Shown here: in pieces, positions 265 through 5,511 of the stretch | Numbering within the stretch: the first letter of the stretch is position 1 | Layout: every line of letters starts with the position of its first letter | Assembly (NCBI GenBank): GCA_949291975.1 | Contig: CASEYA010000059.1 | Span: 1-5,934, forward strand | Source: an uncultured Christensenella sp. | GTDB lineage: Bacteria > Bacillota > Clostridia > Christensenellales > UBA1242 | DNA: 5,934 nt | Direction: 5' to 3' | The notes under the pieces: model-generated | The model's database searches: none | The model's input: only the letters and a program-made list of their open reading frames with translations | What the model was told of the DNA's origin: nothing | Translations under genes and position numbers: made by a program

Positions 265-288
265 AAAAAACCACCATGGTCGGTGGTT
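265..288 (-). terminator. Intrinsic terminator downstream of the deacetylase gene
   Basis: On the minus strand the arm AACCACC (288-282) pairs with GGTGGTT (275-269) around a 6-base loop, and the T run reaches 265. The stem has 7 bp and is GC-rich for this genome. It lies about 100 bases after the stop codon of the gene at 391-1128 and would end that transcript. The plus-strand side has no comparable U-tract. Confidence 0.75.
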
Positions 289-390: not shown

Positions 391-1128
391 CTATTTTAAT
401 GCGGTAAAGTCAATTAGTTCAATATCTTGCCAAACATTTTCTTCCAATGCCTTTCTAAGTGAAACAAGTTCGCTTTCACGGGCAAGATAGTTTGTTTGTG
501 AAATTGTATATTCATCAATATAGCCAGCGGTGCACATAAGTTCTGCTGTTATGTCTTTATCTCTAAGTTCATCAGCAATTTGTTTGAGAACATCAAAATT
601 TCCATAATTTTCATGAAATTCATCAATGTAAATGTCTGTGGTTTTTATTCCTTTTTCTCTTGCAAGGCTGGCAGTATGTGCGGTCATTGAACGAACGGGT
701 AATTGATATTTTTCCGCAAGTTCCAAATAGGCACGATAAACTTCTGGTGCAGAATAAAAATAGTGATGAAAGTCAAGGTGAGAGGGGTTAATGCCAAAAT
801 CATAAAACTTTTGAATTTGCAGGTCAAGTTCCTTTTTTACATCTTCATATTTGGCAAAAAAGGGCATTGAGCACATATAGCGAAAATTTCCGTCACTCTC
901 AACCAAACTTGGCACATTTTCACAAAGCGGGATTCCGTGTGTAATGTTCAAATGCACACCAACATTTTTTAGACCTTGTTTTTTAACTTGCTCCAAGGCT
1001 TCATCTGTATATTTTGCATTCATAAACATGGAAGCACTGGTAATAAAACCCTGCATAAGCCCTTCAAAAATTCCTTTGTTTATACTTTGAGAAAGTCCCA
1101 AATCTTCTGCGTTTATTATAAGTTTCAT
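391..1128 (-). CDS. ChbG/YdjC-family carbohydrate deacetylase, divergent motifs
   Basis: This 245-residue protein has the length and layout of the YdjC/ChbG family, metal-dependent deacetylases of N-acetylated sugars (E. coli ChbG acts on chitooligosaccharides). An N-terminal strand leads into NAEDLG (residues 6-11), the counterpart of NADDxG, with D9 as likely metal ligand. GVHLNIT follows, with H59 as the family histidine, then SHLDFHH with H117, H121 and H122. The C-terminal block ELMCTAGYIDE aligns with the usual E-x-M-C-H-P-G-Y segment. Three positions differ from the norm: the first Asp of NADD is Glu8, the usual HHHVH is HHYFY, and the C-terminal HPG is TAG. The substrate cannot be read from sequence. 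The ATG at 1128 is preceded by AAGGAA six bases upstream. No signal peptide is seen, so it should be cytoplasmic. The 185 bases between it and the RNA terminator at 1314 show no convincing promoter, though they have several -10-like hexamers. It appears to be a single-gene unit. Confidence 0.88.
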   Translation of the reverse strand: MKLIINAEDLGLSQSINKGIFEGLMQGFITSASMFMNAKYTDEALEQVKKQGLKNVGVHLNITHGIPLCENVPSLVESDGNFRYMCSMPFFAKYEDVKKELDLQIQKFYDFGINPSHLDFHHYFYSAPEVYRAYLELAEKYQLPVRSMTAHTASLAREKGIKTTDIYIDEFHENYGNFDVLKQIADELRDKDITAELMCTAGYIDEYTISQTNYLARESELVSLRKALEENVWQDIELIDFTALK

Positions 1129-1313
1129 ATTAAATTCCTTTTATATTCAATTCAATAAAACAATTTTAAACTAAAAGTAAAAATAAAACAATCAAAAATT
1201 ACCTTTTTCTTATATTTTTCTAAAATTTATTTTTAAACCGAAAAAGTTAGTTTATAATATAAAAAATCAATCTATAATATTATCAATGCAGACCACAAGA
1301 CTTAACAGCAAAC

Positions 1314-1342
1314 AAAAAAAGAGCAAACCCACAGGCTTGCTC
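1314..1342 (-). terminator. Strong intrinsic terminator ending the putative small RNA
   Basis: On the minus strand GAGCAAGCC (1342-1334) pairs with GGTTTGCTC (1329-1321) around a TGTG loop. This is 9 continuous pairs, counting one G-U in RNA, followed by seven T (1320-1314). The wobble pair means the hairpin is complete only on the minus strand. rpsT already has a terminator at 1524-1552, so this one must serve a transcript starting between them. Confidence 0.88.
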
Positions 1343-1460
1343 AAAAAGTGCTGACAAAGCAACATAAAATGCGCTAAGTCAACAAAACAAAGCGAATGCT
1401 TCGTTTAAAATCCGACTTTCGCCAGATACCAAAACATTACTTGCGTAAGTTAAGGATAAT
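1314..1460 (-). ncRNA. Putative independent structured small RNA, about 145 nt, family unknown
   Basis: This non-coding stretch has its own promoter (1493-1464) and ends in its own terminator (1342-1314). Read 5' to 3' on the minus strand it contains four elements. First is a weak hairpin, ACUU-ACGC-AAGU (1450-1439). Second is a 7-bp hairpin, AUCUGGC-GAAA-GUCGGAU, with a GNRA loop (1427-1410). Third is AAACGAA paired with UUCG(C)UUU around a GCA loop (1406-1389). Fourth is a longer stem closed by GUUGAC/GUCAGC (1383-1350), with a UU/UU internal loop and AGC, CAU pairings inside. Several pairs are G-U on the minus strand and would be A·C on the plus strand, so the sense strand is minus. I found no match to tmRNA, SRP RNA, RNase P RNA, 6S RNA or the riboswitch classes I know. 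Alternatively it is a long leader of the deacetylase gene, 185 bases downstream. The 5' end is an estimate. Confidence 0.62.
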
Positions 1461-1463
1461 TCA

Positions 1464-1493
1464 ATTTTAACATGGTTTAAAAACAAAAGTCAA
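1464..1493 (-). promoter_or_regulatory. Predicted sigma-A type promoter of the putative small RNA
   Basis: On the minus strand TTGACT (1493-1488) matches the -35 consensus at five of six positions. It is followed after 18 bases by TAAAAT (1469-1464), five of six for the -10. Transcription would begin near 1457-1460. The promoter sits downstream of the rpsT terminator, which supports a separate transcription unit. Confidence 0.6.
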
Positions 1494-1523
1494 CCAAATT
1501 TAATAAAATTTTTATAAATTGGC

Positions 1524-2917: not shown

Positions 2918-3712
2918 ATGAAAAAAATAACAGCAGAAAGTCCAATTTTGTTTTTGGATAGTGGACTTGGTGGATTAACCACGCTTTTTCAAACTGAACT
3001 GCTTTTACCACACGAAAATTTCATTTATGTTGCAGATTTCAAAAATCATCCATATGGCAATAAAACAAAAAAGCAGATTGAAAATGTTGTAATACATAAC
3101 ATAAAACACTTTTACGCACAGTTTTACCCAAAAAGTGTGGTTCTTGCGTGTAATACCGCCACAGCAGTTGCCATTACCAGACTTAGAAAAATGTTTTCAA
3201 ACATAATCATAATTGGAACAGAACCAGCCATCAGACCAGCCATCGAAGCGGGTAAAAAAAGAATTTTGGTGCTTGGAACACAGGCCACAATAAAACATAG
3301 TTCTTTAATCAAACTTTTTAAGGCAAACAAGCACAGCTACTTAAAATTTCTTGCTTTGCCAGAACTTGCCAAACTTGTTGATGATAACTATCTAAATAAT
3401 AAAAAACTTATTGATAATTATCTTGCTGAAAAACTAACACCGCTAAAAGACAAGTTTGACGCAGTAATTTTAGGATGCACTCACTATGTAATTTTAAAAA
3501 AAGAAATTAAAAATTGCCTTGGCAATGTAACCATTTTTTCTGGTAACGGTGGTGTTGCAAAGCGTCTTAAACAATGTTTAACCTTGTTAAACCTTAGAAA
3601 CTTGGGCAAAGGCTCTTTAAGATTAATTTCAACATCAGTGGTCAAACAAGAGATGCTGTTAGAAAATCATAACTATCTGTTTAAAAGGAGAAAAGAAATA
3701 TGTGTGGTCTAG
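2918..3712 (+). CDS. murI: Glutamate racemase
   Basis: MurI converts L-glutamate to D-glutamate for the peptidoglycan stem peptide, in the cytoplasm, without a cofactor. The 264 residues show the family layout. LDSGLGGLT is at residues 13-21 with D14 and S15, and PYG at 45-47. VVLACNTATA carries the first catalytic cysteine, C78. IGTEPAIRPA is at 99-108. ILGCTH carries the second cysteine, C187, and H189. Length is normal. The ATG at 2918 fits the usual few residues before DSG, yet the bases upstream lack any Shine-Dalgarno sequence. The C-terminal IFSGNGGVA has Ser where many homologues carry Asp (iDSG…VA), a minor divergence. The last 13 bases overlap glmS, whose ribosome binding site lies inside this gene, so the two are probably cotranscribed and translationally coupled. 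Confidence 0.95.
   Translation: MKKITAESPILFLDSGLGGLTTLFQTELLLPHENFIYVADFKNHPYGNKTKKQIENVVIHNIKHFYAQFYPKSVVLACNTATAVAITRLRKMFSNIIIIGTEPAIRPAIEAGKKRILVLGTQATIKHSSLIKLFKANKHSYLKFLALPELAKLVDDNYLNNKKLIDNYLAEKLTPLKDKFDAVILGCTHYVILKKEIKNCLGNVTIFSGNGGVAKRLKQCLTLLNLRNLGKGSLRLISTSVVKQEMLLENHNYLFKRRKEICVV
3685..3690 (+). promoter_or_regulatory. Ribosome binding site of glmS inside murI
   Basis: AAGGAG sits nine bases before the glmS ATG and 20 bases before the end of the murI stop codon. It fixes the glmS start, which must be ATG-TGT to expose the catalytic cysteine, and makes translational coupling to murI likely. Confidence 0.85.
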
Positions 3713-5511
3713 TTGGATATGTTGGGCAACAACCAGTGTCTGATATTTTAATAAAACTTTTAGAGCGACTTGAATACAGGGGATATGATTCTGCTGGAAT
3801 TGCTCTTAATGAAAAAGGTAAGTTGGTGCTTGAAAAAAGTCAGGGTCTTTTGGTGAATCTGTCTAACAAGATTGAAAATAAGAATTTTTCAGCAACAAGT
3901 GGAATTGGTCACACACGCTGGGCGACTCACGGAAAACCAAACGAAAAAAACGCACACCCACACATCAGTGAAAATGGTCAAGTTGCACTTGTTCATAATG
4001 GCATAATTGAAAATTATAATAAGTTAAAAAACGAACTGAAAGATATAAAATTTATTTCAGAAACAGACACCGAGGTGGTTGTTCAACTGCTTGGAAAATA
4101 TATCACTAAAAAAAGTGATGAAAATCACATTTTGCGTCAAATTGCCAAGGTTTGTGAAATGATAAAAGGCTCATATGCTTTTGCAATAATGGTAGCACAT
4201 ATTCCAAACAAGATTTTCTTTGCAAAAAAAGGAAGCCCACTTATTATTGGGTGCGGAAAAGATGAAAATTTTTTGGCAAGCGATATTCCAGCGCTTTTGC
4301 CATTTACAAATAATATCATCTATGTTAAAGACGGAGAAATGGGTGAGATAAGCACAAAGGAGATTAAAGTTTTTGATTTCAAACTTAAACAAAAAAATAA
4401 TATTGTTAAAAAAATCAATCTTTCACCCGAGCAGGTCATGCTTGGCAACTATTCAACTTTTATGGAAAAAGAAATTGCTCAGGGCAGTTACGCCATGCAA
4501 AATACCTTGGAACACATAACAAAAGATAGAATATTTTATAAAATAAAAAAGACAAAATTTCAAGATTTGTCTATGATGTGTTCTAACATTCACATTGTTG
4601 CTTGTGGAACAGCCCTTCATGCTGGGATGCTTGCAAAATATATTCTAGAAAGAGAATGCAGGCTGGCCGTCAGCCTTGATTATGCAAGTGAATTTAGATA
4701 TAAAAAGCCACTGATAAATAAAAAAAGCATTTGTATCTTTATCAGCCAAAGTGGAGAAACTGCAGATACCATTGCCAGTTTACAGCTTGCCAAAAAGTGC
4801 GGGGCATATTGTGTTGCAATAACAAATGTTATAACAAGCAGAATTGCAAGCCTTGCCGATTTCGTTATTCCAACATATGCTGGACCTGAAATAGCAGTTG
4901 CTTCCACAAAGGCATATGTGGCACAAATAACAGCACTTTATGCATTAATTGAATTTATTGCCAAACTTAATAACAAGAAGATAAAATATAATTCAAATGA
5001 TTTTTTAGGTGTTGTAAAAAAGATTGAAAATTGGTCAACAAAACTTTTATGGCAAGATATGGTTAAGAATATTTGTTCAAAGGAAAGCATCTATTTTGTG
5101 GGAAGGGGAATTGATTTTTATCTTGTGAAAGAGGGTGCTTTAAAGCTGACTGAAATCAGTTACATTCACGCCGAAGCCTTTGCTGGCGGAGAACTTAAAC
5201 ATGGAAGTTTGGCTCTTATAAACGAAGAAGCCATTGTGATTGTGCTTTTAACACAAAAAGATTTGATTGATAAAACACTTAATGCTGTTGCTGAAATCAA
5301 GACAAGAGGGGCAACTGTGATTTTAATTTCTCAATTTGAATATCTAAAAAATTATGCTCAGCATTTTATTTTGCTTCCAAAAGTAAAAGATATTTTAATG
5401 CCTTTTGTTGCAATAAAACCACTTCAAGAACTTGCGTTTTTATGCGCACAAGAAAAAAATCTTAATCCAGATAAGCCAAGAAATCTCGCAAAATCAGTTA
5501 CTGTTGAATAG
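3700..5511 (+). CDS. glmS: Glutamine--fructose-6-phosphate aminotransferase (isomerizing)
   Basis: GlmS makes glucosamine-6-phosphate from fructose-6-phosphate and glutamine, the entry step to UDP-GlcNAc. The 603 residues match the family's usual length of about 600. The N-terminal glutaminase domain begins MCGLVGY with C2 as nucleophile, then RGYDSAG (27-33), GHTRWATHG (70-78), HNGIIENY (99-106) and SETDTEV (120-126). Two SIS sugar-isomerase domains follow. The first has ACGTALHAG (301-309), FISQSGETADT (348-358) and STKAYVAQ (402-409). The second has YFVGRG, EISYIHAEAFAGGELKHG (485-502, with H501) and the C-terminal tail PRNLAKSVTVE with a conserved lysine. The linker block usually reading KEIxEQP is KEIAQGS here (257-263). 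The start overlaps murI by 13 bases, so there is no separate 5' UTR and no room for a glmS ribozyme. A terminator follows the gene. Confidence 0.98.
   Translation: MCGLVGYVGQQPVSDILIKLLERLEYRGYDSAGIALNEKGKLVLEKSQGLLVNLSNKIENKNFSATSGIGHTRWATHGKPNEKNAHPHISENGQVALVHNGIIENYNKLKNELKDIKFISETDTEVVVQLLGKYITKKSDENHILRQIAKVCEMIKGSYAFAIMVAHIPNKIFFAKKGSPLIIGCGKDENFLASDIPALLPFTNNIIYVKDGEMGEISTKEIKVFDFKLKQKNNIVKKINLSPEQVMLGNYSTFMEKEIAQGSYAMQNTLEHITKDRIFYKIKKTKFQDLSMMCSNIHIVACGTALHAGMLAKYILERECRLAVSLDYASEFRYKKPLINKKSICIFISQSGETADTIASLQLAKKCGAYCVAITNVITSRIASLADFVIPTYAGPEIAVASTKAYVAQITALYALIEFIAKLNNKKIKYNSNDFLGVVKKIENWSTKLLWQDMVKNICSKESIYFVGRGIDFYLVKEGALKLTEISYIHAEAFAGGELKHGSLALINEEAIVIVLLTQKDLIDKTLNAVAEIKTRGATVILISQFEYLKNYAQHFILLPKVKDILMPFVAIKPLQELAFLCAQEKNLNPDKPRNLAKSVTVE

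Follow-up and report, generated by a model that had tools for sequence, protein, structure and literature searches.

We predict a small-RNA gene on the minus strand, at 1493-1314, of the window, the whole 5,934-nucleotide stretch analysed here, which is one entire contig (C59) of a draft genome (the source genome, G000; 866,708 bases, 142 contigs, 89% complete). The gene lies in about 300 bases that are unique to G000 among nine genomes of its genus, and its RNA of about 144 nt would be compact, Hfq-independent, and protein-binding, a reading to which we give about even credence. Judged by its sequence, the unit is a credible candidate for a species-specific sRNA gene with the signals needed for transcription. 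The promoter would drive RNA synthesis from near 1457 to near 1314, both ends being predicted; the unit would have been inserted once this lineage had diverged from its nearest sequenced relative; and the RNA would bind a protein, which is the weakest step of the proposal.

The sequence of the RNA has no precedent in the collections searched; its type is ordinary. Intergenic trans-encoded bacterial sRNAs have a promoter, 50-250 nt of RNA, and an intrinsic terminator, and orphan candidates of this type are a frequent yield of intergenic scans. The present unit is like them in gene layout, length, terminator with U-tail, and flanking genes that are ended and started separately; it is unlike them in leaving few unpaired bases that could serve as a seed, in belonging to a genus in which no Hfq was detected, and in having no relatives that we could find. 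If transcribed, it would exemplify sRNA gene gain cleanly: the nearest relative and seven other genus mates lack it at this junction, the genomes concerned measure about 1 Mb, and no Hfq was detected in them. Questions about the origin or arrival of a new RNA gene, and about selection on it, could then be put. The features of the unit and its neighbours are listed in Table 1; no tRNA or tmRNA genes were found in the window with ARAGORN.

Table 1. Features of the predicted RNA unit and neighbouring genes in the window.
Feature	Position	Strand	Details and basis
Predicted small RNA, ~144 nt	1314-1457	minus	Fold; start at 1457 placed from the -10
Promoter TTGACT-18-TAAAAT	1464-1493	minus	-35 at 1493-1488, -10 at 1469-1464
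A/T-rich, UP-element-like stretch ahead of -35	1494-1520	minus	Sequence
Hairpin 1, GCAA loop	1433-1451	minus	Predicted fold
Hairpin 2, GAAA loop, two G-U pairs	1410-1427	minus	Predicted fold
Hairpin 3, one G-U pair	1385-1406	minus	Predicted fold
Hairpin 4, longest, two G-U pairs	1349-1384	minus	Predicted fold
Intrinsic terminator	1314-1342	minus	Hairpin 1342-1321, 9 pairs (5 GC, one G-U); seven T at 1320-1314
Stretch bounded by imperfect 35-nt inverted repeat	1205-1508		Arms 1205-1239 and 1474-1508, 26/35 complementary; near insert edges
YdjC-family deacetylase gene (ydjC)	391-1128	minus	Downstream neighbour of RNA unit; Pfam PF04794, E 6.2e-47
Putative own promoter of deacetylase gene, TTGTTT-17-TAAAAT	1163-1191	minus	By eye
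rpsT terminator, 8-pair hairpin and eight T	1524-1552	minus	By eye
rpsT, ribosomal protein S20	1553-1828	minus	Upstream neighbour of RNA unit; Pfam PF01649, E 8.3e-22
Germination protease	within 1877-2758	plus	Pfam
Asp/Glu racemase family, murI-like	2918-3712	plus	Pfam
SIS and glutamine amidotransferase protein, glmS-like	3700-5511	plus	Pfam

Promoter and terminator signals

The unit has the layout of an sRNA gene, with its own promoter, its own terminator, and no ORF between them. The promoter matches the consensus at 10 of 12 positions in the promoter scan, with TG one base ahead of the -10, and the pairs of the terminator stem have probabilities of at least 0.99. Taken singly, such sites are not rare in the window and lie near expectation (promoter-like, 38 vs 23.6 expected; terminator-like, 5 vs 3.6 expected). 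A promoter scoring 10/12 or better and, 50-300 nt away on the same strand, a terminator with 7 or more pairs occurred together in none of 2000 shuffles of 1129-1552 and in none of 200 shuffles of the whole window, at thresholds chosen after the unit was already known. The minus-strand promoter and the terminator with its seven T are present as the original prediction had claimed, and its view that this is a complete unit, not read-out from rpsT, is supported by the sequence, the fold described below, and the promoter-terminator shuffles. The terminator assigned to rpsT is an eye reading only and was not among the sites of the terminator scan; a hairpin with a T-rich run, likewise seen by eye, lies 3' of rpsT in all nine genus sequences.

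The promoter belongs to a style that other genomes share. The string TTGACTTTTGTTTTT, which comprises the -35 and the T-rich stretch after it, combined with a -10 of the form TANNNT, has five occurrences in four of the nine genus genomes, and the reversed control pattern has none in the nine. Of the other four copies, one precedes an RsfS-like ORF and another a further ORF (both by eye), a third lies about 300 nt ahead of a tRNA-Arg gene, and the fourth extends past the end of its contig. When the whole insert was searched with blastn against the family, matches with E <= 0.1 came from 291 of 309 genomes (two candidates scored per genome), the best of them covering the UP-element-like stretch and the -35. 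Among the matches listed, nearly all fell in AT-rich parts of the insert, on the promoter side or in the tail, and a single one (28 nt) covered the terminator side; the AT-rich matches may have crowded out others. The promoter-like stretches in other family genomes stand mostly ahead of ORFs (nine loci, by eye). These family matches show a common promoter style, not a common RNA. Because the motif is shared within the genus and ORFs follow similar stretches, the promoter prediction is better than a bare consensus match.

A small peptide product was considered and rejected. The insert holds no ORF of at least 50 aa, and the only frames of at least 8 codons within the RNA, of 17 codons (TTG) and 10 codons (ATG), have no evident ribosome site by eye.

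Fold of the predicted RNA

The minus-strand RNA (1460-1314) folds at -51.5 kcal/mol vs -30.5 +/- 3.3 kcal/mol for its shuffles (z -6.3; none of 200 equals it), and the plus strand of the same stretch reaches -32.1 kcal/mol (z -3.2; two shuffles as stable). The stability is not confined to the terminator: with the terminator hairpin and tail removed, the RNA body (1343-1460) still has a z of -4.8. We also scanned both strands of the window in 194 segments of 147 nt with 60 shuffles each, and the most extreme was 1321-1467 on the minus strand (z -7.0), the best elsewhere reaching -4.5. The predicted fold consists of four hairpins and the terminator, which together hold 48 pairs, six of them G-U, and the sampled pairs have probabilities of at least 0.98; the roughly 145 bases with at least three hairpins of the original prediction are borne out by it. 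Two of the loops are GNRA tetraloops, and the longest accessible run beyond the U-tail is 6 nt. The RNA has AUCCUU at its 5' end, the CC of which is paired.

The G-U pairs had been read as a sign that structure is preserved on the minus-strand RNA and broken on the plus strand. Preservation is not demonstrable from one sequence, and the idea of a preserved RNA is weakened by the finding that none of the eight other genus genomes has the unit at this junction.

Homologues and known RNA families

The original prediction had matched the RNA to no known family, and none of the Rfam 15 covariance models reached its gathering threshold anywhere in the window. Searching 1129-1560 at E values up to 10 returned chance scores only; the best sub-threshold scores were for AbsR28, an Acinetobacter family (19.5 bits vs a gathering threshold of 50), and snoR144, a snoRNA family (28 bits vs 100), both of which we take as chance. 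At the level of titles and abstracts, we found nothing in the literature on this RNA.

With blastn, the RNA matched only its own genome among the nine of the genus, where it is single copy. A covariance model detected no relatives in 309 family genomes or 396 order genomes, G000 itself being the only match each time; this model was built from one sequence and is weak for distant kin, and the family and order runs used stricter filters. Five weak matches outside G000 in the genus (E 0.76-5.4) were inspected by eye and rejected: they fall in what appear to be coding regions, in AT-rich sequence, and in a series of hairpins that follows a tRNA gene. Phage and plasmid collections yielded only pieces of 23-34 bases at E 0.3, and four exact patterns of the RNA had no matches in viral contigs. 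With no relative found, the sequences searched show neither covariation of the stems nor a sign of long-term selection on the unit.

Separately, by eye, one genus genome carries three near-identical tandem terminator-like hairpins (GAGGC..GCCTC, with T runs) downstream of a tRNA-Ile (G001:C101, ~995-1142, minus strand).

The rpsT-deacetylase junction in related genomes

rpsT was found in 137 of the 147 family genomes searched, and we compared the junction in the best 30 of these loci. The deacetylase gene lies downstream of rpsT in 19 of the 30, the window included. From the rpsT stop to the deacetylase start there are 424 nt in G000. The distance is 46-129 nt in its eight genus mates and 49-159 nt in the other ten loci; the 46-nt gap is that of G002, where a partial copy of the deacetylase gene comes next. 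The nearest relative, G004, whose rpsT and deacetylase proteins are 98% and 89% identical to those of G000, has a junction of 129 nt in which the rpsT terminator and the bases immediately ahead of the deacetylase gene are retained and the RNA unit is lacking. The unit is a probable insertion that, of the nine genus genomes examined, is present only in G000. Lack of stem conservation in close relatives had been named beforehand as evidence against the unit; to the letter, no stem is conserved, but what the relatives lack is the unit in its entirety; they do not carry it with decayed stems.

The plain reading is that the approximately 300 bases between rpsT and the deacetylase gene were gained in the G000 lineage; on the comparison of these junctions, the alternative of losses in every other genome would call for several events. 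G000 being a 142-contig draft, a local assembly fault may affect the RNA locus.

The same junction in G002 (G002:C3:503000-511000, ~3010-5225, minus strand) holds a cassette of about 1.9 kb with a 447-aa radical SAM-like and a 174-aa uracil-DNA glycosylase-like ORF, both identified by eye. The cassette is bounded by a 164-bp direct repeat (99.4% identical) that contains the ydjC start, so a full-length ydjC still lies downstream of it.

Protein binding and base pairing as possible roles

Protein binding would be the likeliest role of the RNA, although it has neither a homologue nor a motif behind it; we infer it because few bases are free beyond the U-tail and two of the loops are GNRA tetraloops. 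Dependence on Hfq is not supported by the genomes examined: Hfq (PF17209) was detected in none of the nine genus genomes, which include G000 and one that is 99% complete, while a control search found it in 5 of 14 known genomes. As G000 is an 89% complete draft, its lack of a detected Hfq is not proof of absence.

Alternatively, the RNA could act in trans by base pairing and repress mRNAs, for example that of an alcohol dehydrogenase, or mRNAs with AAGGA ribosome sites through AUCCUU, a role that we consider rather unlikely. Twenty-one of 22 bases at G000:C91 are complementary to hairpin 4 (E 0.0014); the RNA would pair there with the coding strand of what by eye resembles an iron-type alcohol dehydrogenase ORF. 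In a simulated genome, however, 24 of 300 shuffled queries reach the same 36 bits, which makes the match ordinary and no better than chance; the site also lies inside hairpin 4 on the RNA side and deep within the coding region on the target side, and we rejected this target. The 5' AUCCUU could pair with AAGGA ribosome-binding sites, but its CC is already engaged in the predicted fold, and an RNA folded so tightly has little free sequence from which seed pairing could start; the lack of detected Hfq in the genus also speaks against this role. Pairing of the RNA was also predicted for the 5' region of each window gene, five in all; the deacetylase gene gave the best value (z -2.2), which we do not hold significant. 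On the RNA side this pairing involves the 5' AUCCUU together with the U-rich linker that leads into the terminator; on the mRNA side it falls about 75 nt before and about 55 nt after the start, away from the ribosome site.

Mobile-element and guide-RNA readings of the insert

Instead of an RNA gene, the insert could be a small mobile element, whole or reduced to one end, of the MITE-like, insertion-sequence, phage, or guide-RNA type, with hairpins that are DNA or guide structures; this we regard as improbable. Presence in one genome only would fit such an origin, as would the inverted repeat near the insert edges (when the two AT-rich flanks are shuffled, 5 of 200 trials score as high) and the other insertion at the same junction in G002. 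Compared with a MITE, the insert shows the imperfect inverted repeat, which is AT-rich and only 74% complementary, but it occurs in one copy in its genome, and no direct repeat was found in 1129-1560, hence no target duplication. The absence of any longer ORF and the results for phage, plasmid, and viral sequences also count against an element. The inverted repeat is suggestive of element ends, if weakly so, and the insert could be both an element and a gene.

The guide-RNA variant was considered because hairpin 2 is GAAA-capped and stands between GUUUU and AAAC, an arrangement like that of a tracrRNA. Like the tracrRNA of type II CRISPR systems, the predicted RNA is short, has several hairpins, and ends in a terminator. 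Cas9 genes (TIGR01865) occur in two of the nine genus genomes, G003 and G005; unlike in a type II system, none was found in G000, whose completeness of 89% means that this absence is not proof, and the CRISPR repeats of G003 and G005 align with the insert only locally and weakly, in a comparison scored without a shuffle control. A tracrRNA is therefore not supported by the Cas9 search and the repeats of these relatives. Nor does the unit fit a type III antitoxin RNA, which has tandem repeated units ahead of a toxin gene: 1129-1560 contains no direct-repeat families, and the downstream gene encodes a YdjC deacetylase.

The Cas9 loci themselves (G003:C2 and G005:C26) are accompanied by CRISPR repeats, with 29 array copies in G003 and 10 in G005, where the array reaches a contig end. 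An anti-repeat-like copy in G003 (11650-11678) may mark the tracrRNA of that genome.

The junction as a possible landing site, and a possible deacetylase leader

A bolder version of the compact, Hfq-independent RNA would make the G000 unit a newly acquired promoter-RNA-terminator cassette and the first known member of a class of such RNAs, with the rpsT-ydjC junction as a landing site of the clade that received the RNA gene in G000 and the radical-SAM pair in G002; we think this distinctly unlikely.

That the unit is instead the 5' leader of the deacetylase gene, a riboswitch or attenuator in which promoter (at 1493), aptamer, terminator, and gene follow one another, is in keeping with their shared strand and order and with the terminator lying between promoter and gene, but is very unlikely on the predicted structures, given that the 5' arm of the terminator, when its 3' arm is kept from pairing, has no partner in the minimum-energy fold and no competing antiterminator appears, that 185 nt with a possible promoter in a G004-shared stretch separate the T run from the deacetylase start, and that in 17 other loci an undisturbed deacetylase gene follows rpsT at 49-159 nt, too short for a 180-nt unit.

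The candidate promoter of the deacetylase gene aligns with the sequence of the nearest relative, where the -10-like hexamer is TAAACT; it was picked out by eye and is absent from the list of the promoter scan. Downstream of the deacetylase gene there is a second terminator-like hairpin (269-288, minus strand) with eight pairs, four of them GC, and a T run.
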